A DNA stretch of 64,000 bases from Pelagibius sp. Alg239-R121 (GTDB lineage Bacteria; Pseudomonadota; Alphaproteobacteria; Kiloniellales; Kiloniellaceae): positions 186,001 to 250,000 of the forward strand of contig NZ_CAMZOF010000010.1 in assembly GCF_947331435.1 (NCBI RefSeq), given 5' to 3'. Position numbers and translations under genes: made by a program. Under the pieces are notes generated by a model that was given only the letters and a program-made list of their open reading frames with translations, had not been told where the DNA came from and ran no database searches. Within the stretch, counting starts at the first letter, position 1. Each line of letters begins with the position of its first letter. Shown here piece after piece: positions 1 through 62,821 of the stretch.

Positions 1-1385
1 TCGATAAGCAGAACCTGGAGGTCCGCGACATTGGTCCCGGTCGCGCCTGGCTGCAGCAAATCGCCAGCCAGCGACAGCGCCTGATAAGAATCGTTGTTTG
101 CTAAAAGCGCCTCAGCATCTCCGCCTGCCGCCTGGATACGTGCCAGACTTGACGGATCGACAATACCACCCGCGGCATCCGTGGGACCGTCACGGCCGTC
201 CGTTCCGCCGCTCAAAAAGGTCCAGCGACCGGAGAATCCTCGAGCGGCTGCCTTCATCGCAAAGGCAAGCGCAAGCTCCTGATTCCGCCCTCCACGTCCG
301 TTGCCCTGCAAAGTTACAGTGGTCTCGCCCCCTGTCAGCAAAGCCAATGGCCGGCCCATCTCAACGTTTGCAGCAAGCGCCGCGGCAAGAAGCAGCTCAG
401 CGGCATCCTGTGCTTCACCGCAAAGGGCATCGCTAACGATTTGGGTCTGAAAGCCGAGCTCGCCGGCAACGCGCTCCGTCGCGGACAGGCTCATGCCGTT
501 GCTGCCGATCAGCGACGATCCCGCAGAGTCGAAGATCGGATCGCCGGATTTCGGCGTCTCTTCGACGGCACCGTCCCGGCCCTGCTCAAGCCTTGTTTTT
601 ACGCTCAAGGGCACACGGTTCCATACATCCCCCTCTTCGAGGATCGCGATGGCATCTGAGAAGCTCGTTGCATCCGGTACGGTCGGCCCGCTCGCGATCG
701 CGCTCAGATCGTCGCCGATAACGTCGGAAAGGATCAGTGCGTGCAGTGCCGCGGGCGCGGCGTAACGGACCAAGCCTCCCCCCTTTAGGGCCGAAAGGTG
801 CTTACGGACACAGTTGACTTGCACAATGTCGGCACCGCAGGCTAACAGCAAATCCGTGGTCGCAATCTTTTCTCCCAGCGTGATCGGCGGCACCGGTGCC
901 GGTAACAAAGCCGAACCGCCACCGCTGACCAGTACCAGGACAAGTTCGTCCTCATCGGCTTGAGCGGCGATTTCCATGACCCGTTGCGCCCCGCGCACAC
1001 CGCCCTGATCAGGCAAAGGATGCCCGGCACCGATCAACTCAAAACCTCGAATGTCACCCGCACCGTCGTCACTGGCATTTTCGTGGTTGGTCACGATGAC
1101 GCCGCCGTCGCGAAAGAGACTCTCCGGAAGCAGATCTGAAACGGCCCGTGCCATGGCTTTGGCCGCCTTGCCGATCGCGATCGGGCGCACGGTCTGCCAG
1201 TCGCCGCGACGAATCTGCGAACCCGGCGTGCCCGGCAACAGCATAATTTCAATCTGACCGTCATTAACCCGCAAGGCCCGGCATACTGCTTTCGCCGGAT
1301 CTGCCGCCGCGACACCGGCCATATAGATCTTTTTCGCAACGGCCCTCAATTCGGCGAGCCGCTTGCTGTCACCGGCTTCATTCAT
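1..1385 (-). CDS. Glycerate 2-kinase, MOFRL family (3' end cut by window edge)
   Basis: I translated this by hand from the ATG at 1385; the frame stays open to base 1. Glycerate 2-kinases of this class phosphorylate D-glycerate with ATP in the cytoplasm, feeding glycolysis from glyoxylate, tartrate or serine breakdown. Seen in the sequence: an N-terminal kinase domain with VSGGGSALL and a later IASGPTVPD, and a C-terminal MOFRL domain with GRGGRNQELAL and LSGGTDGRDGPTDAAGG. The last visible residues, TGTNVADLQVLLI, are where these proteins normally end, so only a few residues are missing. The start has a weak ribosome site. Older annotations call this family hydroxypyruvate reductase (TtuD), a name now thought to be mostly wrong. 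Family is certain; the physiological substrate route is not visible here. Confidence 0.93.
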   Translation of the reverse strand, partial: MNEAGDSKRLAELRAVAKKIYMAGVAAADPAKAVCRALRVNDGQIEIMLLPGTPGSQIRRGDWQTVRPIAIGKAAKAMARAVSDLLPESLFRDGGVIVTNHENASDDGAGDIRGFELIGAGHPLPDQGGVRGAQRVMEIAAQADEDELVLVLVSGGGSALLPAPVPPITLGEKIATTDLLLACGADIVQVNCVRKHLSALKGGGLVRYAAPAALHALILSDVIGDDLSAIASGPTVPDATSFSDAIAILEEGDVWNRVPLSVKTRLEQGRDGAVEETPKSGDPIFDSAGSSLIGSNGMSLSATERVAGELGFQTQIVSDALCGEAQDAAELLLAAALAANVEMGRPLALLTGGETTVTLQGNGRGGRNQELALAFAMKAAARGFSGRWTFLSGGTDGRDGPTDAAGGIVDPSSLARIQAAGGDAEALLANNDSYQALSLAGDLLQPGATGTNVADLQVLLI

Positions 1386-1563
1386 CAAAATTTTCCGTTA
1401 GTAAGCCCAGGAAATCGGCGCAATGGGTAGCACATTCGATGCTCTCGGCACAACCGGGGGTCCTACAGCACACAGCGTAGTCGAAACCCAACAGCAAGCA
1501 TGCTAAGATCATACGATCGGGGGAAGTTCAAGACGTCGGTGTTTCGTTTCAACGGTGTTGGTA

Positions 1564-2046
1564 ATGAGCCTTATCTTCCGTTTGTCGTGGGTCGTTCTGC
1601 TGTCCTTCTTTCGCAGGCGCATGGAGCCTCTTGACTGGTCAAAGCTCAAGATGCGTGTCCTTCCGACTGATCTCGACATCAATTTTCACATGAATAATGG
1701 CAGATATCTGACCTTGATCGATCTTTGCCGGATGGATCTGTTTTTGCGCACCGGCCTTTACCGCTTGATGTGGAAATACCGTTGGGCTCCGGCCGTCAGC
1801 TCACTCACCATGGAATTCCGGCGTCCGCTCAGGCTGTTCCAGAAGTATACGCTGCGCTCGCGCATCATTCATTGGGACAAGCGTTTGGTGTTTAGCGAAC
1901 ATGAATTCCTGGTCGGCAAGCGCATTGTCGCCCGCGGCACCTCGAATACCTGTCTCATTGCCCGCAATGGCATGGTCGTGCCGCCGGAACGGATTTTGAA
2001 GCTTCTCGGGTGGACCGGACAAGCGCCAGAACCTGCGGCTAAATAG
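1564..2046 (+). CDS. Hotdog-fold acyl thioesterase (4HBT / THEM6-like)
   Basis: A 160-residue protein starting with a short hydrophobic segment (IFRLSWVVLLSFF, about residues 3-16) followed by a single hotdog domain. The motif D-x-D-x-NFHMNNGRY near residue 40 is the 4HBT-type active-site region of acyl-CoA or acyl-ACP thioesterases. The likely reaction is hydrolysis of a fatty acyl thioester at the inner face of the membrane; the substrate is unknown. An in-frame GTG at 1555 is an alternative start; I prefer the ATG at 1564 because relatives begin with just a few residues before the hydrophobic stretch. It stands alone, divergent from the glycerate kinase and convergent with the next gene. 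Confidence 0.8.
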   Translation: MSLIFRLSWVVLLSFFRRRMEPLDWSKLKMRVLPTDLDINFHMNNGRYLTLIDLCRMDLFLRTGLYRLMWKYRWAPAVSSLTMEFRRPLRLFQKYTLRSRIIHWDKRLVFSEHEFLVGKRIVARGTSNTCLIARNGMVVPPERILKLLGWTGQAPEPAAK

Positions 2047-2146
2047 GCGTGCGAACCAGACAGAGTAAAATACGGTCTGCTCTTACCTATCAATCCTCGA
2101 CGATCAGCTTGTAATCCGAGGTCGTATTAAGCGGGCAGGAATGGAT

Positions 2147-2587
2147 TTATTCACCGGGCTTCAGAGTGATCTTGTAATCCTGCGCTTTGCCAGTGACGAG
2201 TCCGCCACCGGATACACTCGGCAGGTGCGCCCGATTCAGAAGACCGTCGCCCCTCACCCAAAACCCAAGCTCGCAGGAAACGTTCTTATTGGTGACGCGA
2301 AAAATATAGTCACCGGCCTTCAATGTGAGAGGCGCAGCCTTCACAACCCGTTCATCGCCGGTCTTATCGTTGAAAGCTTCGCAATCGGCTTTCCTGGTCG
2401 TTGAATAACCGTGGTAGATGCCGTCCTCGGACTCAATGAACTGACAGGCAATCTGGGTCAATGTAATGACCGTGGGTTTCGCGGAAGCATCACCGGCAAG
2501 TGCTGCTGTCGCACTCAGGCTTCCGGCCAGCGCCGCAACGAACAGATGTTGTTTGAAGATATGTGTGGGGAAAGTTTCACCATTCAT
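2147..2587 (-). CDS. Small exported protein of unknown function
   Basis: A 146-residue protein with a signal peptide ending near ATAALAGDA (about residue 32). The mature part is about 110 residues with three cysteines (IACQF, ADCEA, VSCELGF) and a beta-rich pattern, with a stretch LTLKAGDYIFRVTN that looks like a strand pair in cupredoxin-like or immunoglobulin-like folds. I see no full copper site. I have an impression that similar small periplasmic proteins accompany DUF302 and CNPC-repeat genes elsewhere, but I cannot verify it here. It lies downstream of the small CNPC-repeat gene on the same strand, 136 bases away, with a GC-rich inverted repeat between them, so it may be cotranscribed with it. 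Confidence 0.7.
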   Translation of the reverse strand: MNGETFPTHIFKQHLFVAALAGSLSATAALAGDASAKPTVITLTQIACQFIESEDGIYHGYSTTRKADCEAFNDKTGDERVVKAAPLTLKAGDYIFRVTNKNVSCELGFWVRGDGLLNRAHLPSVSGGGLVTGKAQDYKITLKPGE

Positions 2588-2660
2588 CGTTCCGCCGCCA
2601 GGCCGAATTTCAGAATTGGATGAGTTACAGAGTCAGGCTGAAGTCTGAAGAACAAAGTCA

Positions 2661-2696
2661 ACCGGCCGCCGCACCCGAAGGCAGCAAGCGGCCGGT
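2661..2696 (-). terminator. GC-rich inverted repeat between CNPC gene and next gene
   Basis: Nine-base arms (ACCGGCCGC at 2661-2669, GCGGCCGGT at 2688-2696) with an 18-base loop lie between two same-strand genes. There is no T-run after the stem on the minus strand, so it is not a classic Rho-independent terminator. It could slow or partly stop transcription, or protect the upstream message. Confidence 0.35.
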
Positions 2697-2709
2697 CGTA
2701 AAAAGCCTG

Positions 2710-2729
2710 AAATAGACTTAAGTCTATTT
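2710..2729 (-). terminator. 20-base perfect palindrome overlapping a stop codon
   Basis: AAATAGACTTAAGTCTATTT is a perfect palindrome that contains the TAG stop of the small CNPC gene. On the minus strand it is followed after five bases by TTTTT. It may act as a weak terminator or a 3'-end stabiliser. Confidence 0.45.
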
Positions 2730-3014
2730 AGCCGCGCAAGGGTTGCACGGGTTCTTGGCTGCACAAGGGTTGCAAGGATTGCAGGGGTTCTTGGCTGCAC
2801 AAGGATTGCAGGGATTGCATGGATTCTTGGCTGCGCAGGGATTGCAAGGATTGCAAACTTTTTTCGCGGCGCAAGGCGAACAGGTTGCGAAAGCGGCCTT
2901 CGGCAGAGCCGTTACGCCAGCAGCCATGCTGCCTAGGCCAACGGCCAGACCAAGCATAACCGGAATGATTGTGGTCGAAGACAGAAGCCGTCCCTTATAT
3001 GAAGTCTTTTTCAT
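2724..3014 (-). CDS. Small exported CNPC-repeat cysteine-rich protein
   Basis: A 96-residue protein: a signal peptide of about 43 residues (cleavage after KAAFA) and then a mature peptide made almost wholly of CNPC repeats with AAK spacers. By my count 13 of about 53 mature residues are cysteine, nearly all in overlapping C-x-x-C pairs, which suggests metal binding or thiol/disulfide chemistry in the periplasm. No CxxCH haem motif is present. The leader matches that of the large CNPC-P460 protein at 6610-7896 (shared pattern LL-S/T-x-TT-x-IPV-x-LGLAVG, then VTALP), so the two are paralogues. A GAGGAG ribosome site sits 7 bases before the ATG. It is divergent from DUF302-yeeE. Function is unknown. 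Confidence 0.85.
2727..2882 (-). repeat. Tandem coding repeat, CNPC units (small array)
   Basis: The coding DNA repeats a 36-base unit encoding [12 protein letters not shown]. There are about three full units plus partial ones. It is the short counterpart of the array at 7132-7740. Confidence 0.85.
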
Positions 3015-3286
3015 TTCTACACTCCTCGATGTTACGAACCCCCAGTGTGAGGATTCCGGGTCGGCGGACTGCCTCCCCTTGATACACTGTGCAAATGGCT
3101 ACGCTCAAATTTGTTTCAGCCCTATTGCACAGCGTCGTGAAACTAAGTGATCGGACAGGGGCGAATTTACCTCAAACCGATGATTTAGTGCGTAAATTTG
3201 CGATCAATTAACAGTGATACTTCATTGATTCAGAGTGATATGAGGTAGTCTCGCGGCACAGTTAAGCAAGTCACCGGAGACACACC
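3015..3286. promoter_or_regulatory. Divergent intergenic region, CNPC gene / DUF302
   Basis: This 272-base gap must hold promoters for the leftward CNPC gene and the rightward DUF302-yeeE pair. The half near DUF302 is AT-rich (around 3160-3240). I could not pick out a -35/-10 pair or an operator with confidence. Confidence 0.4.
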
Positions 3287-3763
3287 ATGCGCTGGATCCT
3301 CTCAATGGTTCTCGCCTTTTTCCTCAACTACGCCCTTCTGGAAAGTAACGTCCAGGCGGCCTCCTCTTCTCCTTACAGCGGCTTTCAAGTCGTCCAAACG
3401 ACACAGCCGTTCAATAGCTTTGCCGAGCAACTAACGGCAGCGATCAAGAAGAATAAGATGGGTTTGGTGGCGCAGGCCTGTGCCAATTGTGGGGCTAAGT
3501 CCATTGGTGTCACAATTCCGGGCAACCGCGTGTTTATGATTTTTCGCCCGGATTTCGCTGTGCGTATGCTCGCGGCGAGTGAAGCTGCCGGCATTGAGGC
3601 ACCTTTAAGGCTCTACGTAACCGAACAAGCCGACGGCAATGCGCAACTAAGTTATCGCCTGCCAAGCCACACCTTCGGTGACTACAATGTTCCGGAGCTC
3701 GACAAGCTGGGCGCCGAGCTAGACGTCATCATTGCGCAGATCGTCAATGACGCTCTGAAATAG
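3287..3763 (+). CDS. Exported DUF302-domain protein
   Basis: A 158-residue protein with a signal peptide (hydrophobic residues 3-20, cleavage near VQAAS). The mature part matches the DUF302 pattern: an N-terminal FNSFAEQLTAAIKKNKMGLVA, here cut short, then a FRPDFAVRML helix, then LRLYVTEQADGNAQLSYRLPS. DUF302 domains are small alpha/beta folds of unknown role, often found near sulfur or metal genes. The two cysteines in ACANCG form a C-x-x-C pair that may bind metal. A CCGGAGA ribosome site precedes the ATG. It lies 31 bases upstream of the YeeE-like transporter and is probably cotranscribed with it. Confidence 0.82.
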   Translation: MRWILSMVLAFFLNYALLESNVQAASSSPYSGFQVVQTTQPFNSFAEQLTAAIKKNKMGLVAQACANCGAKSIGVTIPGNRVFMIFRPDFAVRMLAASEAAGIEAPLRLYVTEQADGNAQLSYRLPSHTFGDYNVPELDKLGAELDVIIAQIVNDALK

Positions 3764-3794
3764 TCTGCCGCCCGTCCAGGAATTCAAGCACCGT

Positions 3795-4982
3795 ATGACC
3801 GTAACCGCCTATCCGCCTTCTGATTTATCTCAGGATCGTAATCCTCTGCAGGTGACTGCACTGCTCATCGCGCTCGCCGCCATTTCAACGCTCGCGGTTG
3901 CAACCTACATGATCAGTGTAAAGCAGGTGATTCTGTTTGGAATTGGCATCGGGCTTGGACTGTCGCTCTACCACGCGACCTTCGGCTTTACCGGTGCCTA
4001 TCGTCGGGCAATGGCGGAAGGTGACATTTCGGGCGTCACCGCCCAGCTTATCATGCTGGGCGTCGCTGTTTTGCTGTTTGCCCCTATTCTCGCGCAGGGC
4101 CAAGCCTTCGGGCATGGTGTTGGCGGCGCAATTGCACCGGTCAGCATCTCGATGGCGCTTGGCGCATTTCTCTTCGGAATCGGAATGCAGCTGGGCGGTT
4201 CCTGCGCATCGGGGACACTGTTCGCCGCGGGCGGTGGCAGCATCAGAACACTGCTGGTCTTGATATTCTTCTGTTTTGGAGCTTTCTGGGGCAGCCTGGA
4301 TCTTGCCTGGTGGTCGCAATTGCCCGGCATCGGTTCGGTTTCTCTCAGCCAAACACTTGGGTGGGAAATCGCCCTGCCTCTGCAGCTCTGTGCACTCGTC
4401 GTGATCTATGGCGTTATGCGGCTGCTCGGTGGAAGGCAGAAACGCCCGCTCTGGGATGCCGAAGACTTCACCTGGAAGCGCCTCTTGCGCGGCCCCTGGC
4501 CGATATTGCTGTCGGCATTGCTGTTGGCGCTTCTAAATTGGCTCACTCTCTTGGTCGCAGGACACCCTTGGTCGATCACCTGGGCTTTTTCCCTCTGGGC
4601 GGCCAAGGCAGCCGTGCTGGCCGGCTGGGACCCCCTGACAAGCGGTTTCTGGTCTGGTGGCTTTCAGAAGGCGGCGTTGGAACGCAGCCTTCTGCAGGAC
4701 GTCACCTCGGTGATGAATTTCGGAATCGTCCTTGGAGCCTTCATGGCGGCTGCGCTGGCAGGCCGTCTTGCCAAGCCAACGCGGATTGCCTTCGGCTCAC
4801 TCTCCGCAGCCGTTCTGGGGGGACTGGTGATGGGCTATGGCGCCCGGCTTTCCTATGGCTGCAACATCGGTGCGTTCTTCAGCGGCGTCGCCTCCACCAG
4901 CCTCCATGGCTGGGTCTGGATCGCGTGTGCGCTGCCTGGGAACTACCTTGGCGTTCGGCTTCGCCCATTCTTCAAACTATAG
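3795..4982 (+). CDS. YeeE/YedE-family (DUF395) membrane transporter
   Basis: A 395-residue integral membrane protein with roughly ten or more hydrophobic segments. The two family signatures are visible: GIGMQLGGSCASGTLFAAGGG near residues 130-150 and GYGARLSYGCNIGAFFSG near residues 350-368. Each contains the conserved cysteine-glycine motif that in the characterised member, YeeE, passes thiosulfate across the membrane. The likely role is import of thiosulfate or another sulfur species. It forms an operon with the DUF302 gene and sits between cysteine-rich protein genes, so sulfur supply or sulfane handling for these is a reasonable but untested idea. The long form with both halves fused is normal for the family. 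Confidence 0.88.
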   Translation: MTVTAYPPSDLSQDRNPLQVTALLIALAAISTLAVATYMISVKQVILFGIGIGLGLSLYHATFGFTGAYRRAMAEGDISGVTAQLIMLGVAVLLFAPILAQGQAFGHGVGGAIAPVSISMALGAFLFGIGMQLGGSCASGTLFAAGGGSIRTLLVLIFFCFGAFWGSLDLAWWSQLPGIGSVSLSQTLGWEIALPLQLCALVVIYGVMRLLGGRQKRPLWDAEDFTWKRLLRGPWPILLSALLLALLNWLTLLVAGHPWSITWAFSLWAAKAAVLAGWDPLTSGFWSGGFQKAALERSLLQDVTSVMNFGIVLGAFMAAALAGRLAKPTRIAFGSLSAAVLGGLVMGYGARLSYGCNIGAFFSGVASTSLHGWVWIACALPGNYLGVRLRPFFKL

Positions 4983-4993
4983 AGCAAGGTACT

Positions 4994-5021
4994 GGCGGAT
5001 AAGCGATTCAGATTATCCGCC
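4994..5021. terminator. Bidirectional terminator hairpin
   Basis: GGCGGATAA at 4994-5002 pairs perfectly with TTATCCGCC at 5013-5021 around a 10-base loop, between the convergent yeeE-like gene and the gene ending at 5029. The following bases are only moderately T-rich. Confidence 0.65.
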
Positions 5022-5028
5022 GTATGCT

Positions 5029-5781
5029 TTATCCCCAGGAGCTATTCAGAAAGAGCTTCTCGGCCGGGGCCTCGGACAGTGCCTTGTGAATCTCCTTGAT
5101 TTGCTCATCTACCGAAATCTTGATGCTCGAAGTGACCTCAAGCTTCCGGTCCTCATAGACGTCTTCTGCTGGATGGCTCGCCTGCCATTTCTCAATTTCA
5201 ACATCCCGTTCACGCAAAAGCGTTTCAACCTGTGGGCGGAACAGGCGCAGCATCGAGCTGACCCAATTGTTCGCCGCCAAGCAGGGAAAGGTATGATCGA
5301 TCAGGAACTTATCGAGCATCTTTATGACGTCTTCAGAGCTATAGAAAGTCTCGCCCGTTACCCAGCGATTGGTCGTAAACAGCGCAATGGGATAACCCTG
5401 GCGATCCATGGAAATTGCAATGATGTGCGCCAGAGCGTCGTCGCCTAAGGGGCGTTTTCCCTCGCCTTCATAGGGTGCAGGCCAGATTCCCGAAGGCATC
5501 CCCCCGGATCGCAGAAAAGTGTGAAAGTGACCGTTTTCGCCGTCAGTTCCACGATGGGAGTGGTAGTAGTACTGACTAAAAGTTTCACCGTCGTAGACAT
5601 CACCGTTGGGATAGTGATCCCACTCGTAGAAAGTACCCTGGTTTGCAAGAACCTGCCCGACCACGTTGGCCGAAGTCTTGTTCAGTACCCGGTAAGATTC
5701 GACAACCTCGCCGCCGGCCTTAGCCATATCCTCGAGCCTCGCCTTACTGAGACCCGCCATTACATTACTACCAGCCATCAT
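5029..5781 (-). CDS. Soluble protein of unknown function (DUF6969-like?)
   Basis: A 250-residue protein with no signal peptide or membrane segment. A conserved-looking core runs from about residue 60 to 190 with aromatic and histidine clusters (FSQYYYHSHRG, then GHFHTFLR, then HIIAISMDRQGYP and FTTNRWVTGETFY). The H-x-H-x(8)-H-x-H arrangement suggests a metal site. I faintly recall similar sequences under DUF6969 but cannot confirm it. A second ATG three bases in (5778) has better spacing from the AGAGG ribosome site. It follows the nuclease-like gene by 74 bases on the same strand, so it may share a transcript. No function is proposed. Confidence 0.75.
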   Translation of the reverse strand: MMAGSNVMAGLSKARLEDMAKAGGEVVESYRVLNKTSANVVGQVLANQGTFYEWDHYPNGDVYDGETFSQYYYHSHRGTDGENGHFHTFLRSGGMPSGIWPAPYEGEGKRPLGDDALAHIIAISMDRQGYPIALFTTNRWVTGETFYSSEDVIKMLDKFLIDHTFPCLAANNWVSSMLRLFRPQVETLLRERDVEIEKWQASHPAEDVYEDRKLEVTSSIKISVDEQIKEIHKALSEAPAEKLFLNSSWG

Positions 5782-5855
5782 ATTCCTCTTGCGTCAACAA
5801 TCCGCCGATCTCTCACGAGACGGATAAAATCTGCACTGCGCAAGCCAAGGGAGGA

Positions 5856-6344
5856 TTACTTAACGGCCTCTTCCTGGTTCGCGCGCCATACCCAGGGCGA
5901 CGTAAACCGCCCACGCCACAATGCACGACCTGCGTTCTGTGCCCCAAGCATCGCCTTTTTGTAACGACTGGGGGCATCTTCTGTCGCCATGGCCCAACCA
6001 GTGTGCGCCATACCTTCGGCAATATCGTAACCTGCAGCCCGGCACACACCAAGAGCGTTGCCGCTCTCGCCTAGTCCTTCGACATCGCAAATCACCGAGG
6101 CTCCGGCCGTCAGGTCCATCAAAGCCGACTTGGCAATCAGACCGCAATCAATCTCTTTTTTAGGCCAACTGCAGGTCTGCTCCAACTCTGGAGCATCGAT
6201 ACCTTGCAGATCGATCTTCTGCCCCGCGACTTCAAGAGAATCGCCATCAATGATGCGTGAAGCACCGGTGATCGTCTCGCCGAAAGCCGGAGCGACCGTC
6301 AGAAAAAGCACCGCAGACACAGCCGTTACCAGAAATCTATTCAT
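5856..6344 (-). CDS. Exported thermonuclease-like (SNase fold) protein
   Basis: A 162-residue protein with a signal peptide (cleavage near APAFGE, residue 24) and a staphylococcal-nuclease-like domain. The elements RIIDGDSLEVAGQKIDLQGIDAPE and a later RYKKAMLGAQNAGRALWRGRF match the family's strand 1-3 and C-terminal helix. The usual catalytic arginines are not all obvious: the IDAPE motif is present, but the following RxE region is divergent (LGVCRAAGYDIAE), so it may be a weak or inactive nuclease. The start is taken at the ATG 6344, 12 bases inside a longer TTG-started frame. A 29-residue ORF ends 12 bases upstream. Confidence 0.8.
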   Translation of the reverse strand: MNRFLVTAVSAVLFLTVAPAFGETITGASRIIDGDSLEVAGQKIDLQGIDAPELEQTCSWPKKEIDCGLIAKSALMDLTAGASVICDVEGLGESGNALGVCRAAGYDIAEGMAHTGWAMATEDAPSRYKKAMLGAQNAGRALWRGRFTSPWVWRANQEEAVK

Positions 6345-6356
6345 CTTCGCTACCAA

Positions 6357-6446
6357 TCAAACTCGTCCGACCTGAACAGCCGAAACCGGTGCCGTGACCG
6401 CCAATACCGCGACCAGAGACGCTTGGGCAAATCGTTTGAGAATCAT
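6357..6446 (-). CDS. 29-residue ORF consisting of a signal-peptide-like sequence
   Basis: ATG at 6446 opens a 29-codon frame whose product starts MILKRFAQASLVAVLAVTAP and ends VSAVQVGRV. It has a basic N-terminus, a hydrophobic core and an AxA-like cleavage site, followed by only about six residues. A GGAAAG sequence precedes it. It ends 12 bases before the nuclease-like start, close enough for translational coupling. It could be a leader peptide, a tiny secreted or membrane peptide, or the remnant of a decayed exported protein. Confidence 0.4.
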   Translation of the reverse strand: MILKRFAQASLVAVLAVTAPVSAVQVGRV

Positions 6447-6528
6447 ACGTCTTTCCAGTCACATTTGGTATTCAATCGCTGTGTTTTATGAGGTCTCGTT
6501 TAATCACGGGTCCGACACCGCAACGAAA

Positions 6529-6568
6529 ATCGGGATGTGCCGCTACCTCAGCAGCAACACATCCCGAT
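6529..6568 (-). terminator. Rho-independent terminator after CNPC-P460 gene
   Basis: Eleven-base arms (ATCGGGATGTG at 6529-6539, CACATCCCGAT at 6558-6568) with an 18-base loop. On the minus strand the stem runs into ATTTTCGTTG. It follows the stop at 6610 and separates that gene from the 29-codon ORF and nuclease gene. Confidence 0.75.
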
Positions 6569-6609
6569 CAACTCGTCTAAAACACTATCTTCTTGAATCT
6601 ATCTTCAGC

Positions 6610-7896
6610 TCAATTCGAGGCCCGCAGTTCTTCCGGCAGGAAGAATTGGAAGTCCTGGTCATCGCCGACAGCAATATGACAGTCCTTACAGAAACCAACC
6701 TGCGCGGAACCTTTGCCACCGGTCGTTCCAAAGATCTGACCATTCGGCATCATCAAGGTGTAACGCCAATCACCACCATCTGCATCGAACCCCGCCGACA
6801 TCTTCTCCATCAGGAAGAAGGGTCCAGGGGTCACACGACCGCCCGAAGAAACAGTAAAGCTGTCCTTCGCCAGGATCGATCCAACCGGCATGGTCCCGCC
6901 GTCCTCAAACTTGCTATACTCGGATTTGGCCGTTGCGTTCGCGTAGTTGTTTACGAAGCGACCGCCATGGGTGTCCGAGGTATAGGAAATCTTGGAATAA
7001 CGGGTCCAATCCTTATAGGCCGCCGCGCTTGGATTACCCGACTTGGAATAGCCGGCAACCAATTCATCCAGGATACAATCGTAAACCCGCATCATCTCAG
7101 AATCCGTCAGCGTAGCAGAAGCCGCAGCTGCACAAGGATTGCAGGGATTACATGGGTTACAGGGATTGCAAGGATTTGATGCCGCACAAGGGTTGCAGGG
7201 GTTTGCCGCTGCACAGGGATTGCACGGGTTTGCTGCTGCACAGGGGTTGCAGGGATTGCAAGGGTTCTTGGCCGCACAAGGATTGCAGGGGTTACAGGCC
7301 TTCGCTGCGCAAGGATTGCATGGGTTACAAGCCTTCGCCGCACAAGGATTGCAGGGGTTGCAAGGATTCTTGGCTGCACAGGGGTTACAAGGATTGCAGG
7401 CGTTTGCCGCACAGGGGTTGCACGGATTACAAGGATTGCAAGCCTTCTTAGCGGCACAGGGGTTCGCCGCCGCTAGGCGCGGCACAATGCAGCGTGCAGA
7501 AGCACCGCCGGCGCTACCGCCTGCACAAGGATTGCAGGGATTGCACGGATTACAAGCATTCGCCGCGCAGGGATTGCACGGGTTGCAAGGATTTGCCGCC
7601 GCACAGGGGTTACAGGGATTGCAGGGGTTCTTGGCTGCGCAAGGGTTGCATGGGTTGCAAGGATTCTTGGCTGCACAAGGGTTGCAAGGATTGCACGGAT
7701 TTTTGGCCGCGCAGGGATTACAAGGATTTGTCGCAGCACATTGAGCGACAGCATGCCCAGGCAATGCCGTTACGCTCACTGCAACTGCGCCGGCACCAAC
7801 CGCCAACCCCAAGACGACTGGGATAGCCGTCGTCGTGGTCAAAAGATTGTCCTTTAGCCCGGTAATGAATCTCCCTCGAGATAGTCCGTCGCCCAT
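6610..7896 (-). CDS. CNPC-repeat protein fused to a cytochrome P460 domain
   Basis: A 428-residue exported protein in three parts. Residues 1-51 are a long signal peptide (cleavage after GHAVA). Residues 53-255 are CNPC repeats with AAK/AAA/AN spacers, about 49 cysteines by my count, split in two blocks by a glycine-rich insert ([17 protein letters not shown]). Residues 260-428 are a cytochrome P460-type domain: [10 protein letters not shown], then [38 protein letters not shown] and the haem motif CKDCH at about 403-407. Characterised P460 cytochromes bind c-type haem with a lysine cross-link and oxidise hydroxylamine or NO. Whether this one does is unknown; the lysine in ILAKDSF is a candidate. 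The start is the ATG with AAGGAGG five bases before it; the GTG six bases upstream lies inside that ribosome site. The fusion is unusual. Confidence 0.9.
7132..7740 (-). repeat. Tandem coding repeat, CNPC units (large array)
   Basis: About 600 bases of imperfect tandem repeats encode [12 protein letters not shown] (36 bases) and shorter forms such as [11 protein letters not shown] (33 bases) or AAANPCNPC (27 bases). Codons for Cys, Asn and Pro alternate between synonyms from unit to unit, so the array is not a recent duplication. A non-repeat insert near 7460-7525 divides it. Confidence 0.9.
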
Positions 7897-7940
7897 CTCC
7901 ACCTCCTTATACTGTTTTTTTATCTATCCCTTCGAGGGAA

Positions 7941-7966
7941 GAGGACCGGGCCGAAACCCGGTCCTC
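7941..7966 (-). promoter_or_regulatory. Strong hairpin in the leader of the CNPC-P460 gene
   Basis: The 307-base gap 7897-8203 holds no gene. Within it, GAGGACCGGG (7941-7950) pairs perfectly with CCCGGTCCTC (7957-7966). A second small hairpin, TCCCT/AGGGA around 7928-7940, lies next to it, and a third, TCGGTC/GACCGA, at 8052-8068. All fall in the presumed 5' untranslated region of the leftward CNPC-P460 gene, 45-170 bases before its ATG. No T-run follows on the minus strand. It may be a regulatory leader. The rightward antiporter promoter must also lie in this gap. Confidence 0.5.
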
Positions 7967-8203
7967 CCGCGAGATCCTCGAGGGATGAGGACTTTGCTTT
8001 AAGCCCGACTCCCCGAGTGCTGGAAAGGAGCCGAACTACTGTTTATCGAATTCGGTCTTTTTGACCGACCCAACAACCAGTATATCCAACAATAGGGATT
8101 TTTATTCGGATTGGTGCATGGTTACACAGATTTGTGAAGTCACGTGATAAACTGTGCTCTGTCCACAACGCCGCTTTTCTATGAACGATAAATTCAGGAA
8201 TTC

Positions 8204-9466
8204 ATGAACACTACAGACCTCTCGCCTTTTGAGGCCGCCGCCGCACTCATCGTTCTCGCCGCGGTTCTCGGTTATCTGAACTACAGATTCATAAAACTGC
8301 CGCAAACCATTGGTTTGACGATCATCGGCGCCGTCGCGTCGCTTGCCCTGCTTGGCACGGACAAGCTCTTTCCTCAAATCGCCGTCGGCGCTGCCCTGCA
8401 CGAATTCGTCAAGGACCTGGACTTTCACTCGACACTTATGAACGGCATGCTGTCATTTCTGCTGTTCGCTGGCGCATTGCATGTGGACCTGACGAGTCTC
8501 GCCAAACGCAAATGGACCGTGCTGGCAATGGCGACCATCGGCGTGGCCCTATCCACCGCCATTATAGGGTTCGGCTTCAAAGGCCTGTCGATGGCACTGG
8601 GGTTCGACGTACCGATAGCCTGGTGCCTCGTTTTCGGAGCCTTGATCAGTCCGACCGATCCGGTCGCCGTGATGGGAATTCTAAAATCAGCGCGTGTTCC
8701 CGCGACATTGGAAGCAAAGGTTGCCGGCGAAAGCCTGTTTAACGACGGCGTTGGTGTGGTGATATTTTCCATCCTTCTGGCGTCGGCCATCAGCGGCGAA
8801 TCGCTTTCCCTGATAGATGCGGGCCAGCTCTTCGTCCAGGAAGCCATTGGCGGCGCCCTTCTCGGTCTTGTCATCGGTGGTTTGGCTTTCCTCGCCATGC
8901 GTTCGATCGACGAACACAACATTGAAGTCTTGATCACCCTTGCCTTGGTCATGGGGGGCTATGCCTTAGCCCAACGCCTTCACGTCGCCGGACCGGTGGT
9001 AATGGCGGTCGCCGGGCTCCTGATTGGAAACCACGGTTCACGGCTTGCCATGAGCGAAACGACGCGCGAGCATCTGAATAATTTCTGGGCGCTTTTAGAC
9101 GAAATCCTGAACTCGGTTCTATTTCTGCTGATCGGACTTGAAATCGTCGCCATTGCCCAGGATAGCGGTCATTTGCTGCTCGGTGTCGCAAGCATCCTGC
9201 TGGTGTTGGCAGGACGCTGTGTGGGCGTCGGCGTGCCAATGCTAATCATGTCCAGAATCGCTGATTTCACACGAGGGGCTTACCCCATTCTCGTCTGGGG
9301 CGGGTTGCGTGGCGGAATATCCATTGCGTTGGCGCTTTCGTTGCCTGAAAGCCCGATCCGCGAAACCATCCTGACCGCAACCTATGTCATCGTCGTATTC
9401 TCGGTCGTGATCCAGGGTGCCACCGTAGGCAAGGTGGCGAAACACTTTGTGCCTCAGGACAAGTGA
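8204..9466 (+). CDS. CPA1-family sodium/proton antiporter (NhaP type)
   Basis: A 420-residue membrane protein with about 12 hydrophobic segments. CPA1 signatures are present: SPTDPVAVMGIL near residue 150, ESLFNDGVGVV near residue 180 (the ND ion-binding motif), and WGGLRGGISIALALSLP near residue 370. It exchanges Na+ or K+ for protons across the inner membrane for pH and salt homeostasis. A CAGGAA ribosome site precedes the ATG. The cytoplasmic C-terminus is very short. Salt and pH stress suit a marine or saline organism. It is divergent from the CNPC-P460 gene and appears to be a single transcription unit. Confidence 0.92.
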   Translation: MNTTDLSPFEAAAALIVLAAVLGYLNYRFIKLPQTIGLTIIGAVASLALLGTDKLFPQIAVGAALHEFVKDLDFHSTLMNGMLSFLLFAGALHVDLTSLAKRKWTVLAMATIGVALSTAIIGFGFKGLSMALGFDVPIAWCLVFGALISPTDPVAVMGILKSARVPATLEAKVAGESLFNDGVGVVIFSILLASAISGESLSLIDAGQLFVQEAIGGALLGLVIGGLAFLAMRSIDEHNIEVLITLALVMGGYALAQRLHVAGPVVMAVAGLLIGNHGSRLAMSETTREHLNNFWALLDEILNSVLFLLIGLEIVAIAQDSGHLLLGVASILLVLAGRCVGVGVPMLIMSRIADFTRGAYPILVWGGLRGGISIALALSLPESPIRETILTATYVIVVFSVVIQGATVGKVAKHFVPQDK

Positions 9467-9632
9467 AGGGATACCCTCCGTCCCCGATTAATCTTCCAAA
9501 TACCGGGCGCAGTTCCCCAAAAACCACCATTTGAAGCGGCGGAGTCAGCCAATTGCGACTCTCCTGCTCCTTTTGGTGGAAATCGTGGTACACTCACCCG
9601 TGGAATTTCGCTAAATTCAAGAGAATGAATTC

Positions 9633-11543
9633 GTGCAGGATCAAAAGCTTAACGTCAACGTCACCTGTTTGAAGGCTTACCGCCGAATTGCTTCGGCCCT
9701 ACTGGCCATTGCGGTAGTTGCCGGGTTTTCCAGCGTCCCAGCGGCGCAATCCATCAACTGGGCAGATCCGCAAAGCCCGATCCTTAAGGCCGTCGTTACG
9801 CATCAACGCATTGCGAACGAACGCGAAGTCGGAAACATATTGGTTCTGCGTGCCGGCAGGCCTTTTGCCGGGGTGACCAGGATGACGCTGGTGGCTGGAG
9901 ATTCACTGGTTACCGGCGATCAAACCGCGATTATTGGTTATGCAGACCAGTCTTGGGAAGCAGTGATCCATCCGGGCACACAGGTCGACTTTCGCGGTGG
10001 CGAGGTCAAAGTGACCTTTGGACGGATGTTCGTTCAACTGACCCCTTCCGAACAAAACCTGCTGCCGATCGCGGTCTCCAGCAAGTACGGCACCGTCACG
10101 GCAGGAGACGCCAGTTTCGAGATTGACGTGAGCGAAGATCGCGCGGTCGTCACAGTCATAGCAGGGAAAATCGACCTCACCCGGCCTTCGTCGGAAGTGG
10201 TAAAGCTTCAAGCTCTGGACGAAGCTGTTCTCGTTACCGATGCCCCTGTTGTGTCACGTCCGATAAGTGGCAGCCGTTCAGCTGAGATTGGCGATCGGAT
10301 TGCTACCCTGGCCAATCTAGGGGTCGTGTCGTCGCCAGGCGCACGCCAAACGGCGGCAACTTCGCCACAACCAGCCACGACCACTGAGGCAACCGGGGCA
10401 AGCGAAACCGAATCAGATGCCGCGGCCCAGTTGGCGCGCAACCGCGTCGCCCAGCGCATGCTCAACGAGCTCGGATACGACGCGGGGCCCGCAGATGGTG
10501 TCGCAGGCCCCCGCACTCTGCGTGCTGTGGCGGCCTTCCGTCTGGACCGTCAACTGCCCGGCACGACAAACATCGACGATGGTTTGATCGCCGCTCTGCG
10601 CACGGCGCCCGCAAAAAAAGCTGAGCCGTCAGTCATGAGCCAAGCCGACATCGCTGCGGCCCTTGCCGGTAAAAAACAGACGCAACCGCAGTCTCAAGCA
10701 CTCAAATCTCCCCAAGCACCCGAACCTCCCCAGGCGCCCAAAGCGCAAACCGGGTCTCTGGTTCCTGACGTTGTCGGGTTAGATTTTGACCAGGCCCGAC
10801 AGGCGCTGATCAAGCGTAATCAGTTAATTGGACGTGTGACGTACCAATCCGACGAAGCAGCGGCACCGGGCACCGTCCTGCGGCAGTTTCCCGCGCCCGG
10901 AAATATCGACCGCCAAAACGTCTCAATCGATCTTGTTGTAGCCCGTGCTGCGCCGGTTGCGACAAAGGCCGCAACCACGTCGAGCGGAAACACTGCGGCA
11001 CCCCCTCCGCCACCACCGCCCGGCAGCGCCTCAGGGTCCAACAAGACAGCAGTCGCGAGCACAGACTCCTTTCTTGGAGCGAAGGGTTATCTTGGAAACC
11101 AGGACGAGATCGCGAGCCTCTTCCGGCCGGAACAGAAACTGGAGTCAAGCAATACAACCGGAGCAAACGTCCTCAGTCGTGATGAACTCTCGGCCTGCCT
11201 GAGGATCGAGGATGATTATCTAGCCCAAAAGCTGAGAGTCGGTGCGTCCAATCAAAAGCAGGATGCGACCGCCGACGAAATCGCATCACTCGATGTCAGG
11301 CTGGATGAGATTCTGCCGAAAACCGACCCCAACAAACCTGAGACCGTGAAGGCTTATAATGACCTCCTCGATCAGCGGCTCAAATTGTTTGCCGAATACA
11401 AGGACAACATCCTGCCGGCGGCCCGGCAAAATGAGCGCGAACTGCGGGCGATAGAGCGGAACTTTCAGGCGGACTGCGGCCAACGCCCCTATCGCGCAGA
11501 CGACCTGGAAGCAGCGCGCAAGGAAGCCTCCCTGGCCCGCTAG
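9633..11543 (+). CDS. Exported FecR / PG-binding / PASTA multidomain protein
   Basis: A 636-residue protein with an N-terminal signal (hydrophobic residues 14-30, cleavage near PAAQS). Residues about 50-200 form a FecR-type beta domain (GNILVLRAGRPF, then GDSLVTGDQTAIIGY, then ASFEIDVSEDRAVVTVIAGKI, shortened here). Residues 265-320 are a peptidoglycan-binding type 1 domain (AQRMLNELGYDAGPADGVAGPRT, shortened). Residues 375-435 are one PASTA domain (VPDVVGLDFDQARQALIKRN). A proline-rich linker and a helical C-terminus with a C-x(n)-C pair follow. The set suggests a periplasmic protein that binds cell wall. The start is GTG; an ATG nearby is out of frame. Its role is unknown and the domain combination is unusual. 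Confidence 0.85.
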   Translation: MQDQKLNVNVTCLKAYRRIASALLAIAVVAGFSSVPAAQSINWADPQSPILKAVVTHQRIANEREVGNILVLRAGRPFAGVTRMTLVAGDSLVTGDQTAIIGYADQSWEAVIHPGTQVDFRGGEVKVTFGRMFVQLTPSEQNLLPIAVSSKYGTVTAGDASFEIDVSEDRAVVTVIAGKIDLTRPSSEVVKLQALDEAVLVTDAPVVSRPISGSRSAEIGDRIATLANLGVVSSPGARQTAATSPQPATTTEATGASETESDAAAQLARNRVAQRMLNELGYDAGPADGVAGPRTLRAVAAFRLDRQLPGTTNIDDGLIAALRTAPAKKAEPSVMSQADIAAALAGKKQTQPQSQALKSPQAPEPPQAPKAQTGSLVPDVVGLDFDQARQALIKRNQLIGRVTYQSDEAAAPGTVLRQFPAPGNIDRQNVSIDLVVARAAPVATKAATTSSGNTAAPPPPPPPGSASGSNKTAVASTDSFLGAKGYLGNQDEIASLFRPEQKLESSNTTGANVLSRDELSACLRIEDDYLAQKLRVGASNQKQDATADEIASLDVRLDEILPKTDPNKPETVKAYNDLLDQRLKLFAEYKDNILPAARQNERELRAIERNFQADCGQRPYRADDLEAARKEASLAR

Positions 11544-11660
11544 AGTGACATCGCTTTCCACTGTTTTTGCGAAAAACCTAGGTCAGCATCTCCTGCAGCA
11601 AGACAGAGTCTGGTTGCTTCCACAGAACCAGTGAATTCGTCAATCCATCCCGCAATTAAA

Positions 11661-11690
11661 CAGTCAGCATGCAACCAGTCAGCATGCAAC
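11661..11690. repeat. 15-base perfect tandem duplication
   Basis: CAGTCAGCATGCAAC occurs twice head to tail at 11661-11675 and 11676-11690 in the gap between the FecR-type gene and the diheme cytochrome gene. It looks like a replication-slippage product. Confidence 0.85.
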
Positions 11691-11749
11691 CGGACTTTGC
11701 CCCCCCTCAAGATGCAAAGGGGTGGCGCCGAAGTCCAGTGGAAACGCCC

Positions 11750-13459
11750 TCACAGAGTCTTCATATATTCGACAAGTTCCCAACGCTCTGCGTCGCTGAG
11801 TTTACCTGTGCCGTAGTCGTGTCCAGCGTTCGAATTACCAGTCTTGGAAGCATCGAAAACGAAGCCGCCATCGAAGGCCTCTGTCTCAAAGCCGACGTTC
11901 ACCGGATCGAATTCGCGGCTGCCGACGGTGAAGCGGTCAACGCGCTGATCGGACGGCAACAGGAGCTGATAGAGATTGGGCACGGAACCATTGTGTAGAT
12001 AAGGAGCCGTCGCCCATATGCCGTTCAGCGGTCGGCCTTTGTAAGCAAGCAAGGGGGAGTCGACGTTCAATTCGACTGTTTCGATATTCTCCTCACCTTC
12101 AGGCGCGAGACCAGCCAACGCAGCCTGTAATGATTTTTCAGAGACTTTGATGTTCTCCACGCCCTCGACTGCAGGGCCCGAAACGCGTTGAACGACGCGG
12201 CGGATGATCACGCCTTTGACGACGTGGCTGAGCAAAGCGCCTGCGGGCTCTTCTTCGCCCAGACGGCTGCGCCCAACGATGACCTTGGTCTTGGCGCCCT
12301 TCAGGCGCCCGGTCTTTGCCGTCCTCTGAATGAAGTTCGTTGCCATCCGCGGATCGGTTCCCAACTTCGAAACCTTTGCCATCTTGGCTTTGATCTTCCG
12401 CTTGGGGTCGGTCCGCTCGTCATCGCCGAGCACGACATGGCAGCCGGCACAGTATTTGTTATAATGCGCCTGCCCCGCGGCCGCCTTTGCCGTATCGACT
12501 GCAGGTAGCTGCTCCGGCCACTTCGGTGAATAGAGTTTCTTGATGTGGTCTTCCATGTCGCGCAGGTTCCGGGTTTCCGCTGACGAGCGATAACCGAAGC
12601 GCGACTTCTTGACCTCGAGCTCGCCAAAGACTCCCAGCACTTCCCCCACGTTGCGGCCAAGCGAACCCAACAGGCCGTTGCGCGCAATCCCGTTCCACTG
12701 AACAAAATCGTGCTGCGGCGTATCCCACAGGAAAGGATAACTGACGGGAGCGTCTGGAGCCCGGTAGTTCTCTGGCAGATTAAGTGCGGTGCCGCTGACT
12801 TCGTTGAGGATAATCCCAAAGGCGTCAACCCGGGCATTGCCGTAAGCGACAGGCGAGTGACTGCGCGCCTGCCATGCCTTGAGTTCCACGGTCAGGCCAT
12901 TCAAACGATCACGCAGATCGCTGCGTGCTGCATCGTCACCCCCGTCTTCCAGGACTTTGGCGGCGAAACGATCAAATTTCGCGTTCTCGGATGCGGTCTT
13001 GGAGAGTGCCGCGATTAACCCGTCATGGAACGCCGTGTGATCGCCAAGCGCGGGCGCGCCATCAATCCGCATCTGGGTACCCTGAAAGTCAATCTGTCCG
13101 GTATGACAGGCGGCACAGGTAAACCCCATCCAGGCCTCACCGTTTGACCCCTCGTGTTTGGTCATTCCCACGGGCAGTCCGTCGGGGTTGTAGTAGGATG
13201 TTGTGACATTGGTCAGGTAGCGGTAGCCGTTGATATTGGCGTCGCTGCGAAAGTCCTCTTCGCTATCGGCTTGCTCGACCGCAAGAAACCAATCATAGGG
13301 GATCAGTTGAGACCCTTGGGTCGTCGTATAGAACCACTGCCGGTCTGCATTCGACCACCCTTGGTCCAGATAAACGAATCCATCATCCGGAATGTTATGA
13401 GCGCAACCCGCAACAGCAACCACTGCGGACAGCAGCGCAGCGCGAAAGAAATTTCGCAT
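11750..13459 (-). CDS. RoxA-like diheme cytochrome c lipoprotein
   Basis: A 569-residue protein with a lipoprotein signal peptide (VVAVAGC, lipid cysteine at about 19) and two c-type haem motifs, CAACH at 115-119 and CAGCH at 337-341. The spacing and the WDTPQHDFVQWNG segment between them resemble the RoxA/RoxB and diheme-peroxidase superfamily. Known members cleave rubber with dioxygen (RoxA) or reduce peroxide; the true substrate here cannot be read from the sequence. The ATG at 13459 has a GAGGTGGGG ribosome site and starts exactly at the signal peptide; the frame extends 70 codons further upstream without coding character. It is the last in a run of leftward genes and convergent with the FecR-type gene. 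Confidence 0.85.
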   Translation of the reverse strand: MRNFFRAALLSAVVAVAGCAHNIPDDGFVYLDQGWSNADRQWFYTTTQGSQLIPYDWFLAVEQADSEEDFRSDANINGYRYLTNVTTSYYNPDGLPVGMTKHEGSNGEAWMGFTCAACHTGQIDFQGTQMRIDGAPALGDHTAFHDGLIAALSKTASENAKFDRFAAKVLEDGGDDAARSDLRDRLNGLTVELKAWQARSHSPVAYGNARVDAFGIILNEVSGTALNLPENYRAPDAPVSYPFLWDTPQHDFVQWNGIARNGLLGSLGRNVGEVLGVFGELEVKKSRFGYRSSAETRNLRDMEDHIKKLYSPKWPEQLPAVDTAKAAAGQAHYNKYCAGCHVVLGDDERTDPKRKIKAKMAKVSKLGTDPRMATNFIQRTAKTGRLKGAKTKVIVGRSRLGEEEPAGALLSHVVKGVIIRRVVQRVSGPAVEGVENIKVSEKSLQAALAGLAPEGEENIETVELNVDSPLLAYKGRPLNGIWATAPYLHNGSVPNLYQLLLPSDQRVDRFTVGSREFDPVNVGFETEAFDGGFVFDASKTGNSNAGHDYGTGKLSDAERWELVEYMKTL

Positions 13460-13647
13460 AATCCCCACCTCTGTTCGATCGAGCAATCGTACTTTCCTGC
13501 AGCAATTGCTCGCCCCCAACCCGACTCCCCGCTCACTTGCGGTCTGTCTCCTCAGCCACAATCCTAAGTCATAACAGATTGAAAGCATAGCATTTCCTGC
13601 CCACACACCGCAGCGGTCGACGGGTACAGAAGAACGCAGAGACGCGG

Positions 13648-61939: not shown

Positions 61940-62821
61940 GTGCCGTTTAGGAATACCGCCACAAAGGCCTTCGCACGATGGCTCCCGGGCGCGCTCCTCG
62001 CGCTCGTGCTGTCCGCCTGCCAGCAAAGCCAAGCCGACTCATTCTCGCCACCGACGATTGACGTGCCCGCTGGCAGATTTATTGCCGGTTCAGACGCCGC
62101 CGAGCGTGAATTGGGTTATCGTCTGGACGAATCCGCGTACGGGCATAGCGTCACGCGACAGAACGGCTGGTATGACCGTGAGCGGCCACGTGGGGAAAAA
62201 ACGCTACACGGGTTCGCGATAACGCAAAGCACTATCACCAATGCGCAATACGCCGCCTTCGTTCGCGATACGGGTCACCGGGCACCGGAAGTAACGCCAG
62301 AAACTTGGAGCGGTTATGGCCTGATCCACCCCTACGAGCGCACGCGCCGGCACGCCTGGCGGAACGAGAACCCGCCAGTTGGGCGCGAGAACCATCCGGT
62401 CGTGCTGGTATCTCATGCCGATGCGCAGGCCTACGCCGCCTGGCTATCACGAAAATCCGGTAAATCCTGGCGGCTGCCAAGCGAGCTCGAATGGGAAAAG
62501 GCCGCACGTGGCACCGAAGGCCGAATCTTTCCCTGGGGTAACAGCTTCGATCCGACGAATCTCAACAGCCACGATAAAGGCCCCTTCGATACCCTGCCTG
62601 TCGGCAGTTTTCCCGCAGGCAACAGTCCTTACGGTCTGCAGGACGCCGCCGGACAGGTTTTTGAATGGACTTCAAGCCCGGGCAATCCGGGCCGCTTTCT
62701 GGTCAAGGGCGGATCTTGGGACGACAAAGGCTGCGGTGTGTGCAGGTCGTCCGCGCGTCACGCCCGCCCTGCAGACCTGAAACACATATTGATAGGCTTT
62801 CGTCTGGTCCACGATCTTTGA
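61940..62821 (+). CDS. SUMF1/FGE-domain lipoprotein
   Basis: A 293-residue lipoprotein (signal LLALVLSACQQ) with a formylglycine-generating-enzyme-type domain: IDVPAGRFIAGSD, FAITQSTITNAQYAAF, RLPSELEWEKAARG, FPWGNSFD, NSPYGLQDAAGQVFEWTS and KGGSW are all family landmarks. The FGE active cysteines sit in a C-x4-C frame after GGSW; here the segment is DDKGCGVCRSSARH, with a C-x-x-C pair at shifted positions, so it is probably not a true sulfatase-activating FGE. It may act as an adaptor or an EgtB-like or other oxidase. The start is GTG. It follows the TetR gene by 146 bases. Confidence 0.88.
   Translation: MPFRNTATKAFARWLPGALLALVLSACQQSQADSFSPPTIDVPAGRFIAGSDAAERELGYRLDESAYGHSVTRQNGWYDRERPRGEKTLHGFAITQSTITNAQYAAFVRDTGHRAPEVTPETWSGYGLIHPYERTRRHAWRNENPPVGRENHPVVLVSHADAQAYAAWLSRKSGKSWRLPSELEWEKAARGTEGRIFPWGNSFDPTNLNSHDKGPFDTLPVGSFPAGNSPYGLQDAAGQVFEWTSSPGNPGRFLVKGGSWDDKGCGVCRSSARHARPADLKHILIGFRLVHDL

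Follow-up and report, generated by a model that had tools for sequence, protein, structure and literature searches.

A P460-type heme domain joined to a CNPC cysteine array in Alphaproteobacteria: a possible exported thiol buffer

Introduction

Metallothioneins are cysteine-dense, lysine-containing and unstructured proteins that are low in hydrophobic residues. Bufferins (Buf1/DUF2282 and Buf2) are exported, cysteine-containing and MNIO-modified; the sections of PMC12452194 drawn on here report that they enhance growth under copper stress, that Buf1, Cytochrom_C and FGE-sulfatase domains are joined in fusions, and that formylglycine-generating enzymes (FGEs) are cuproenzymes. The P460/c'-beta superfamily (PF16694) is characterized by a shared fold and a CXXCH motif, with the lack of a lysine at the heme-crosslink position as the criterion for the cytochromes c'-beta. 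In this superfamily, crosslink-deficient proteins are inactive, and hydroxylamine oxidation needs a distal carboxylate in addition to the crosslink, as stated in passages of PMC11928373.

Here, we describe a gene from Pelagibius sp. Alg239-R121, found in a stretch of 64,000 nucleotides analyzed as a whole (henceforth the window), that combines elements of these systems. It shares the fold, the CXXCH motif and an invariant lysine at the crosslink position with the P460/c'-beta superfamily, but differs in its N-terminal cysteine array of about 210 residues, an anchor segment, an extra cysteine and the absence of the catalytic carboxylate; the invariant lysine also departs from the c'-beta criterion. 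Going by the general description above, it resembles the metallothioneins in cysteine density, lysine content, disorder and scarcity of hydrophobic residues, whereas it is exported, longer and fused to a heme domain, and a Pfam scan gave no metallothionein match. Like the bufferins, it is exported and contains cysteines, and in relatives some bufferin genes lie behind the same DNA site. However, its repeat type and P460 heme domain set it apart, the Pfam scan found no DUF2282 (Buf1) signature in either the fusion or a 96-residue CNPC protein nearby, and the two MNIO genes of the source genome lie on contigs 6 and 3, with none adjoining the fusion on contig 10. By analogy, the Buf1, Cytochrom_C and FGE-sulfatase fusions, so far as those sections describe them, would be an independent joining of similar ingredients and a precedent for the present one. 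Membership of the P460/c'-beta superfamily, by profile, fold, heme motif and lysine, is the known part of this protein; the array, the anchor and the shared DNA site are new.

Results

The fusion protein and its cysteine array

The features of the locus are collected in Table 1. Residues are numbered from the GTG start of the ORF list (GTG = 1); by eye, the in-frame ATG, with AGGAGG just upstream, is the likelier start.

Table 1. Features of the CNPC-array/P460 locus (window coordinates)
Feature	Coordinates	Strand	Basis or remark
Cupredoxin-fold partner	2147..2587	-	family alignment; fold of a relative; frame stops inside conserved motif
Stand-alone exported CNPC protein, 96 aa	2724..3014	-	relatives have comparable small proteins next to the fusion
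YeeE/YedE-type sulfur transporter	3795..4982	+	family near in 13/80 loci
DUF6969 protein, commonest neighbor family	5029..5781	-	near in 38/80 loci
CNPC-array/P460 fusion gene	6610..7902	-	430 aa (428 aa from ATG at 7896)
P460/c'-beta domain, residues 265-430	6613..7110	-	PF16694; Foldseek to 7s5o, 6hih, 2je2, 6amg
CKDCH heme c attachment motif, residues 405-409	6676..6690	-	sequence
K346, heme-crosslink lysine position	6865..6867	-	invariant in alignment A1 (41 sequences); aligns with NsP460 K106 via paralog L001
C276 (Y-x-C), proposed disulfide partner of C138	7075..7077	-	in 77/80 relatives
Second half of cysteine array, residues 144-264	7111..7473	-	sequence; model
Anchor segment C138-I-V-P-R-L143, splits array	7474..7491	-	motif in 74/80 relatives; pLDDT 95
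First half of cysteine array, residues 54-137	7492..7743	-	sequence; predicted disordered
Export signal, residues 1-53	7744..7902	-	by eye
Weak shared site, opposite orientation	8122..8151	+	13.2 bits, before fusion gene
Exported FGE-like protein, conserved C-G-V-C	61940..62821	+	PF03781

The protein has 52 cysteines, 49 of which fall in the 211 residues of the array (54-264), where they form 31 overlapping CxxC units; alanine, cysteine, asparagine, proline and lysine together account for 195 of these 211 residues. A sequence-only reading of this DNA, which placed the gene at 6610-7896, had described about 49 cysteines in overlapping C-x-x-C units, a P460-type domain with CKDCH and a signal peptide: the count agrees, the domain scores above its profile cut-off (see below) with the motif in place, and the export signal was again read, by eye only. 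The DNA pattern encoding CNPCNP occurs 19 times in the window (three of these in the second CNPC gene) versus none in 100 shuffles. At the DNA level, the array's 42 Asn-Pro-Cys units come in 12 versions, with a mean third-position difference of 0.56; hence, the array seems, from its codons, to be maintained at the protein level rather than by recent DNA expansion.

The heme domain

The PF16694 match covers residues 295-418 and scores 29.3 bits (E=1.2e-6), above the cut-off of 27; NCBIfam gives no match for the fusion. In a Foldseek comparison, the predicted structure resembles solved cytochromes c'-beta and P460, the best E being 2.7e-5 with a probability of 1.00 (TM 0.44-0.64 depending on target length); the cytochromes c'-beta rank first and P460 next, and 8gar is among the matches besides those in Table 1. 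C405, C408 and H409 are invariant in A1. The equivalence of the likewise invariant K346 with the crosslink lysine of NsP460 runs through L001, a clearer paralog in the source genome, and a K106L mutant of NsP460 differs in this very column; a direct PDB alignment also places K346 on Met79 of NeCP-beta, with the numbering offset inferred. The distal carboxylate position (Glu96/Asp102) falls on F363 through the paralog alignment, the column being counted by hand, and on G371 in a direct but weak alignment (E=0.029). These placements differ, but by both the fusion lacks a Glu or Asp at the catalytic position. Since the crosslink lysine is kept and the carboxylate is absent, hydroxylamine oxidation is not expected under the criterion given in the quoted passages of PMC11928373, and these alignments disfavor the hydroxylamine role that the sequence-only reading had offered.

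An anchor segment within the array

The motif C-x-[VI]-P-x-[LMVI] interrupts the array in 74 of 80 relatives, and the same 74 all carry Y-x-C where the P460 domain begins. Both cysteines are missing in three (L073, L090, L115); another three have Y-x-C without the anchor cysteine, two of them cut by contig ends (L083, L117) and one a real exception (L098). A census by text filter, which passed over array-free paralogs of L170 and L172, comprised 73 P460 proteins from relatives: Y-x-C is present in 31/31 proteins with an array versus 0/42 without one. For three of the census proteins with an array, this filter found no anchor motif: two run into contig ends, and L175 has the variant CYVERL. The repeat of the latter, from a single genome, reads CDPCAP, with Asp replacing Asn. 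Outside the census, L203 has an array, which is rich in both Met and Cys, but neither anchor nor Y-x-C, and six array-free proteins (the paralogs of L170 and L172, and L204-L207) combine Y-x-C with one lone N-terminal cysteine. Sequence comparison with these six suggests that the anchor cysteine is an ancestral N-terminal disulfide partner, with arrays having grown on both its sides.

In an AlphaFold2 model of the mature protein built with 50 sequences, the block-averaged pLDDT is 91-98 over most of the domain and about 40 in the array, apart from model residues 81-90, the anchor, which average 95. Given the co-occurrence of the anchor and Y-x-C cysteines and the confidently folded anchor within a disordered array, a C138-C276 disulfide probably tethers the array loops to the heme domain. 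Strict disulfide pairing of the array cysteines themselves was considered and rejected on their mixed parity, their number being even in 40 of 73 cases and odd in 33; among cysteines spaced by three there are 424 runs of one, i.e., single cysteines are common.

Distribution of the fusion

One scan of genome contigs yielded 239 encoded relatives of the fusion, which rules out a single-genome artifact, one of the outcomes that the sequence-only reading had named as fatal. All 80 that were kept have both an array, of 15-108 cysteines (median 33), and the CXXCH domain, and by record title belong to Alphaproteobacteria or unclassified Proteobacteria/Pseudomonadota. Named strains that carry it include Denitrobaculum tricleocarpae and several Sneathiella. 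The P460 domain, array-bearing or not, is present in 50 of 98 related genomes and seven times in the source genome; in a phylum-wide sample of 249 genomes it is found in seven, namely the source genome, five others of the class and, as a weak match in a broken frame, one outside it. A mobile origin was rejected, with no match among plasmids, phages and viral contigs; PHROGs likewise gave no match, and no RNA element was found in positions 1-12000 of the window.

Nor did a published role come to light, as that reading had also allowed for: among open-licence PMC papers, no description of such a fusion was found, whether by linking cytochrome P460 with CNPC or cysteine-rich, through DUF6969, or through FGE with copper, periplasm and cysteine-rich, and CNPC repeat strings appear only in unrelated work. 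The words fusion, fused, cysteine-rich and copper are all absent from a 2025 review of the P460 superfamily. An exported heme protein with a long cysteine string is thus apparently widespread and undescribed in open-licence PMC papers.

Genomic neighborhood

Neighbor families were defined as BLAST clusters with representatives checked by profile. Near the 80 fusion loci these are DUF6969 (38), FGE-like (30), YeeE (13), cytochrome c (13), SNase (11), Sel1 (11) and cupredoxin-like proteins (10). Among the 98 related genomes, 32 have both the fusion and the FGE-like protein (32 of the 34 with the fusion), two the fusion only (G044, G067), four the FGE-like protein only (G004, G023, G030, G037) and 60 neither; for DUF6969 the corresponding numbers are 32, 2, 21 and 43. 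This table was filled by hand, and the relatedness of the genomes, which are not independent, inflates the association; in G042 the fusion is split over two contigs, with the array start on one and the domain end on the other. The presence of DUF6969 in 21 of the 64 genomes without the fusion counts against the reading that we favor below. In eight genomes of one sister genus with an array-free P460, both FGE and DUF6969 are absent.

The FGE-like gene lies 54 kb from the fusion within the window. Its product matches PF03781 at 153.4 bits, the domain of formylglycine-generating enzymes, and C265 and C268 of its C-G-V-C are invariant in 30/30 sequences, but their position at the FGE copper site does not follow from the alignments. 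A relative of the cupredoxin-like partner, predicted at pLDDT 84, matches the folds of EfeO, laccases and auracyanin, while the family alignment has no invariant His. In the window's own copy (2090-2587, minus strand), the conserved PGE-Y-x-x-S-C-P-L-N is broken by an in-frame stop, after which the family likeness continues; this is either a recent loss or a sequencing error. Counting against copper, no copper family is found among the 25 of 109 Pfam families listed for the neighbors, for which 99 of 175 picked proteins were scanned.

Stand-alone CNPC genes recur in a cluster (L151-L160) with a VTT membrane protein, a MerA/lipoamide-dehydrogenase-like flavoenzyme and a sensor histidine kinase, in genomes with and without the fusion, some of these loci being in part miscalled or truncated. 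The flavoenzyme is seen in the cluster in eight of ten loci read, the stretch being miscalled in the other two, and was profiled in one (L154). The source genome has a third CNPC protein (L148:6083-6439, minus strand) with a 16.9-bit shared site upstream; its start, RR...LSAC, resembles a Tat lipoprotein signal. Further, a gene 4 kb from the fusion (11750-13669, minus strand) encodes a large member of the di-heme cytochrome c peroxidase family (NF040606), part of which resembles RoxA.

A DNA site shared with envelope genes in relatives

The motif search covered 75 of the 80 upstream regions, two congeners being left out on purpose and three regions being too short or without a measurable start. 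A dyad, TCAC-N6-GTGA, occurs in 36/75 versus 2.3 expected, and the refined site, TCAC-N7-TGA-N7-TGA, by construction in 56/75; in 0.93 Mb of shuffled sequence no site reaches 15 bits or more. Elsewhere, matches were counted from 17 bits: these precede 12 of 32 genes labeled as stand-alone CNPC, 4 of 36 DUF6969 and 1 of 10 cupredoxin-like genes versus 3 of 567 other genes, and none of 30 FGE, 13 cytochrome c, ten each of YeeE, SNase and Sel1, four array-free P460 and two DUF302 genes. None of the 12 CNPC matches overlaps a site used to build the matrix. About seven of the 32 CNPC-labeled genes are array-free antisense ORFs, and L058, one of the three other matches, encodes a CNPC protein, so that the real contrast is somewhat larger.

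A strict version of the pattern has 38 matches in 28 of the 98 whole genomes, against none for the reversed control. They lie at 19 fusions, four DUF3179, four bufferin/MNIO, three PycTM-like, two CNPC and two cupredoxin-like genes, and at one each of DUF6969, COX2 and DUF1223 (the last by an identical site), with one not assigned a gene (G055 C117); 17 loci were read gene by gene and the others placed by coordinates or near-identical sequence, the latter being the basis of one bufferin/MNIO and one PycTM-like assignment. The families named were checked by profile. At two of the fusion sites (G039, G042) the contig ends after an array-free P460, the array start being seen in G042, and of the DUF3179 cases one has the site pointing away and one is a piece just under the Pfam cut-off. 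Class-wide, the strict pattern gives 51 matches in 48 of 385 genomes, eight of them repeating the relatives set, versus seven for the reversed control. Of the 43 new loci, 24 were read: four have MsrP-like genes, three bufferin precursors, two DUF1223, one each a cupredoxin-like, VTT, DUF3179 and DUF255 gene, and 11 no recognized gene. One of each kind, other than the cupredoxin-like gene, was profiled, the rest being named by likeness; the genes that we take to be MsrP-like match Pfam Oxidored_molyb.

DUF3179 proteins stand beside the site in several families of the class (L223, L216, L239, L232, L263), with C-P-L-C or C-T-L-C where read, and may be part of the same stress response. A PycTM-like (Pycsar effector) membrane protein lies behind it in related genomes (L230, L231). 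Judged from these sequence matches, the fusion in relatives appears to share a control site with copper-buffering and damage-repair envelope genes.

The source genome itself has no strict site. The window's two CNPC genes have weak sites in the opposite orientation, at 13.2 and 10.5 bits where matches elsewhere were counted from 17; three congeners (L009-L011, L038, L039, L046) have a 13.6-bit site at the same place as the stronger of these, and neither MNIO locus of the source genome has a site above 10.1 bits.

Discussion

We tentatively read the fusion as an exported, heme-tethered thiol buffer of the periplasm for copper (or oxidants) within an envelope-stress regulon, a proposal to which we give somewhat less than even weight. 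The C138-C276 disulfide would leave two polycysteine loops hanging from the heme domain, and the remaining array thiols would capture Cu(I), or another soft metal like it, in the periplasm and so prevent damage; the heme, with its crosslink lysine kept and its carboxylate absent, might bind a small ligand such as NO or handle electrons. In relatives, the fusion would be made together with other envelope proteins of metal or oxidant stress through the promoter element that they have in common; two partners, the FGE-like protein and the cupredoxin-fold one, would act in its pathway. Copper, as a soft metal, is favored because of the envelope location, the polythiol, these two partners, the Met/Cys array of L203 and the site common to bufferins and one COX2 gene. 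Besides the points raised above, the absence of a strict site in the source genome and of any site at the FGE-like, YeeE and SNase genes counts against this reading. Among the roles listed by the sequence-only reading, metal or oxidant buffering gains indirect support from the genes that share the promoter element in relatives, while hydroxylamine chemistry loses support.

The MsrP-like, DUF255 (thioredoxin-like) and DUF1223 proteins behind the site fit oxidant stress as well as copper, which weighs against the copper reading, and because of them we consider, as an unlikely alternative, a sacrificial sink in which periplasmic hypohalous acids, peroxide or other oxidants would oxidize the array cysteines and envelope thiol enzymes would re-reduce them. 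Methionine-rich peptides re-reduced by MsrP offer a parallel, the recurrent cluster of stand-alone CNPC genes with a flavoenzyme would fit, and the heme could conceivably act as a peroxidase; that flavoenzyme, however, has no obvious export signal by eye, and the association of the shared site with bufferins and a COX2 gene speaks for copper instead. The cytochromes c'-beta, some of them solved with NO, are the closest solved folds, and YeeE/YedE-type transporters are recurrent neighbors, as would suit a carrier whose heme captures NO or sulfur species and whose cysteines hold S-nitrosothiols or persulfides. This we consider improbable, with an exact FNR-type TTGA-N6-TCAA in 0/75 upstream regions and, downstream of the shared site, no gene for an NO reductase among those read. 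CxxC is also a common disulfide unit, and the wide variation in array size would be compatible with arrays that cross-link into disulfide-bonded envelope material; but the frequent single cysteines, the mixed parity and a site in common with stress genes, unexpected for a structural part, make such a role highly improbable.

To return to the thiol buffer, a more specific version, which we regard as quite unlikely, is that the fusion represents a new class of metal buffers in the periplasm, an MNIO-free counterpart of the bufferins under the same regulator, with its loops modified by a dedicated exported enzyme of the FGE family and its metal loading controlled by heme redox or NO chemistry. 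C-N-P-C is similar to C-x-P-x, with which the FGE recognition sequence begins.

If the thiol-buffer reading is right, a heme family of the nitrogen cycle would be extended into metal or thiol homeostasis, and the fusion would show a disordered polythiol physically coupled to heme. More generally, the shared DNA site would then tie CNPC proteins, DUF6969, DUF3179, DUF1223, the cupredoxin-fold protein and the bufferins into one envelope-stress regulon.
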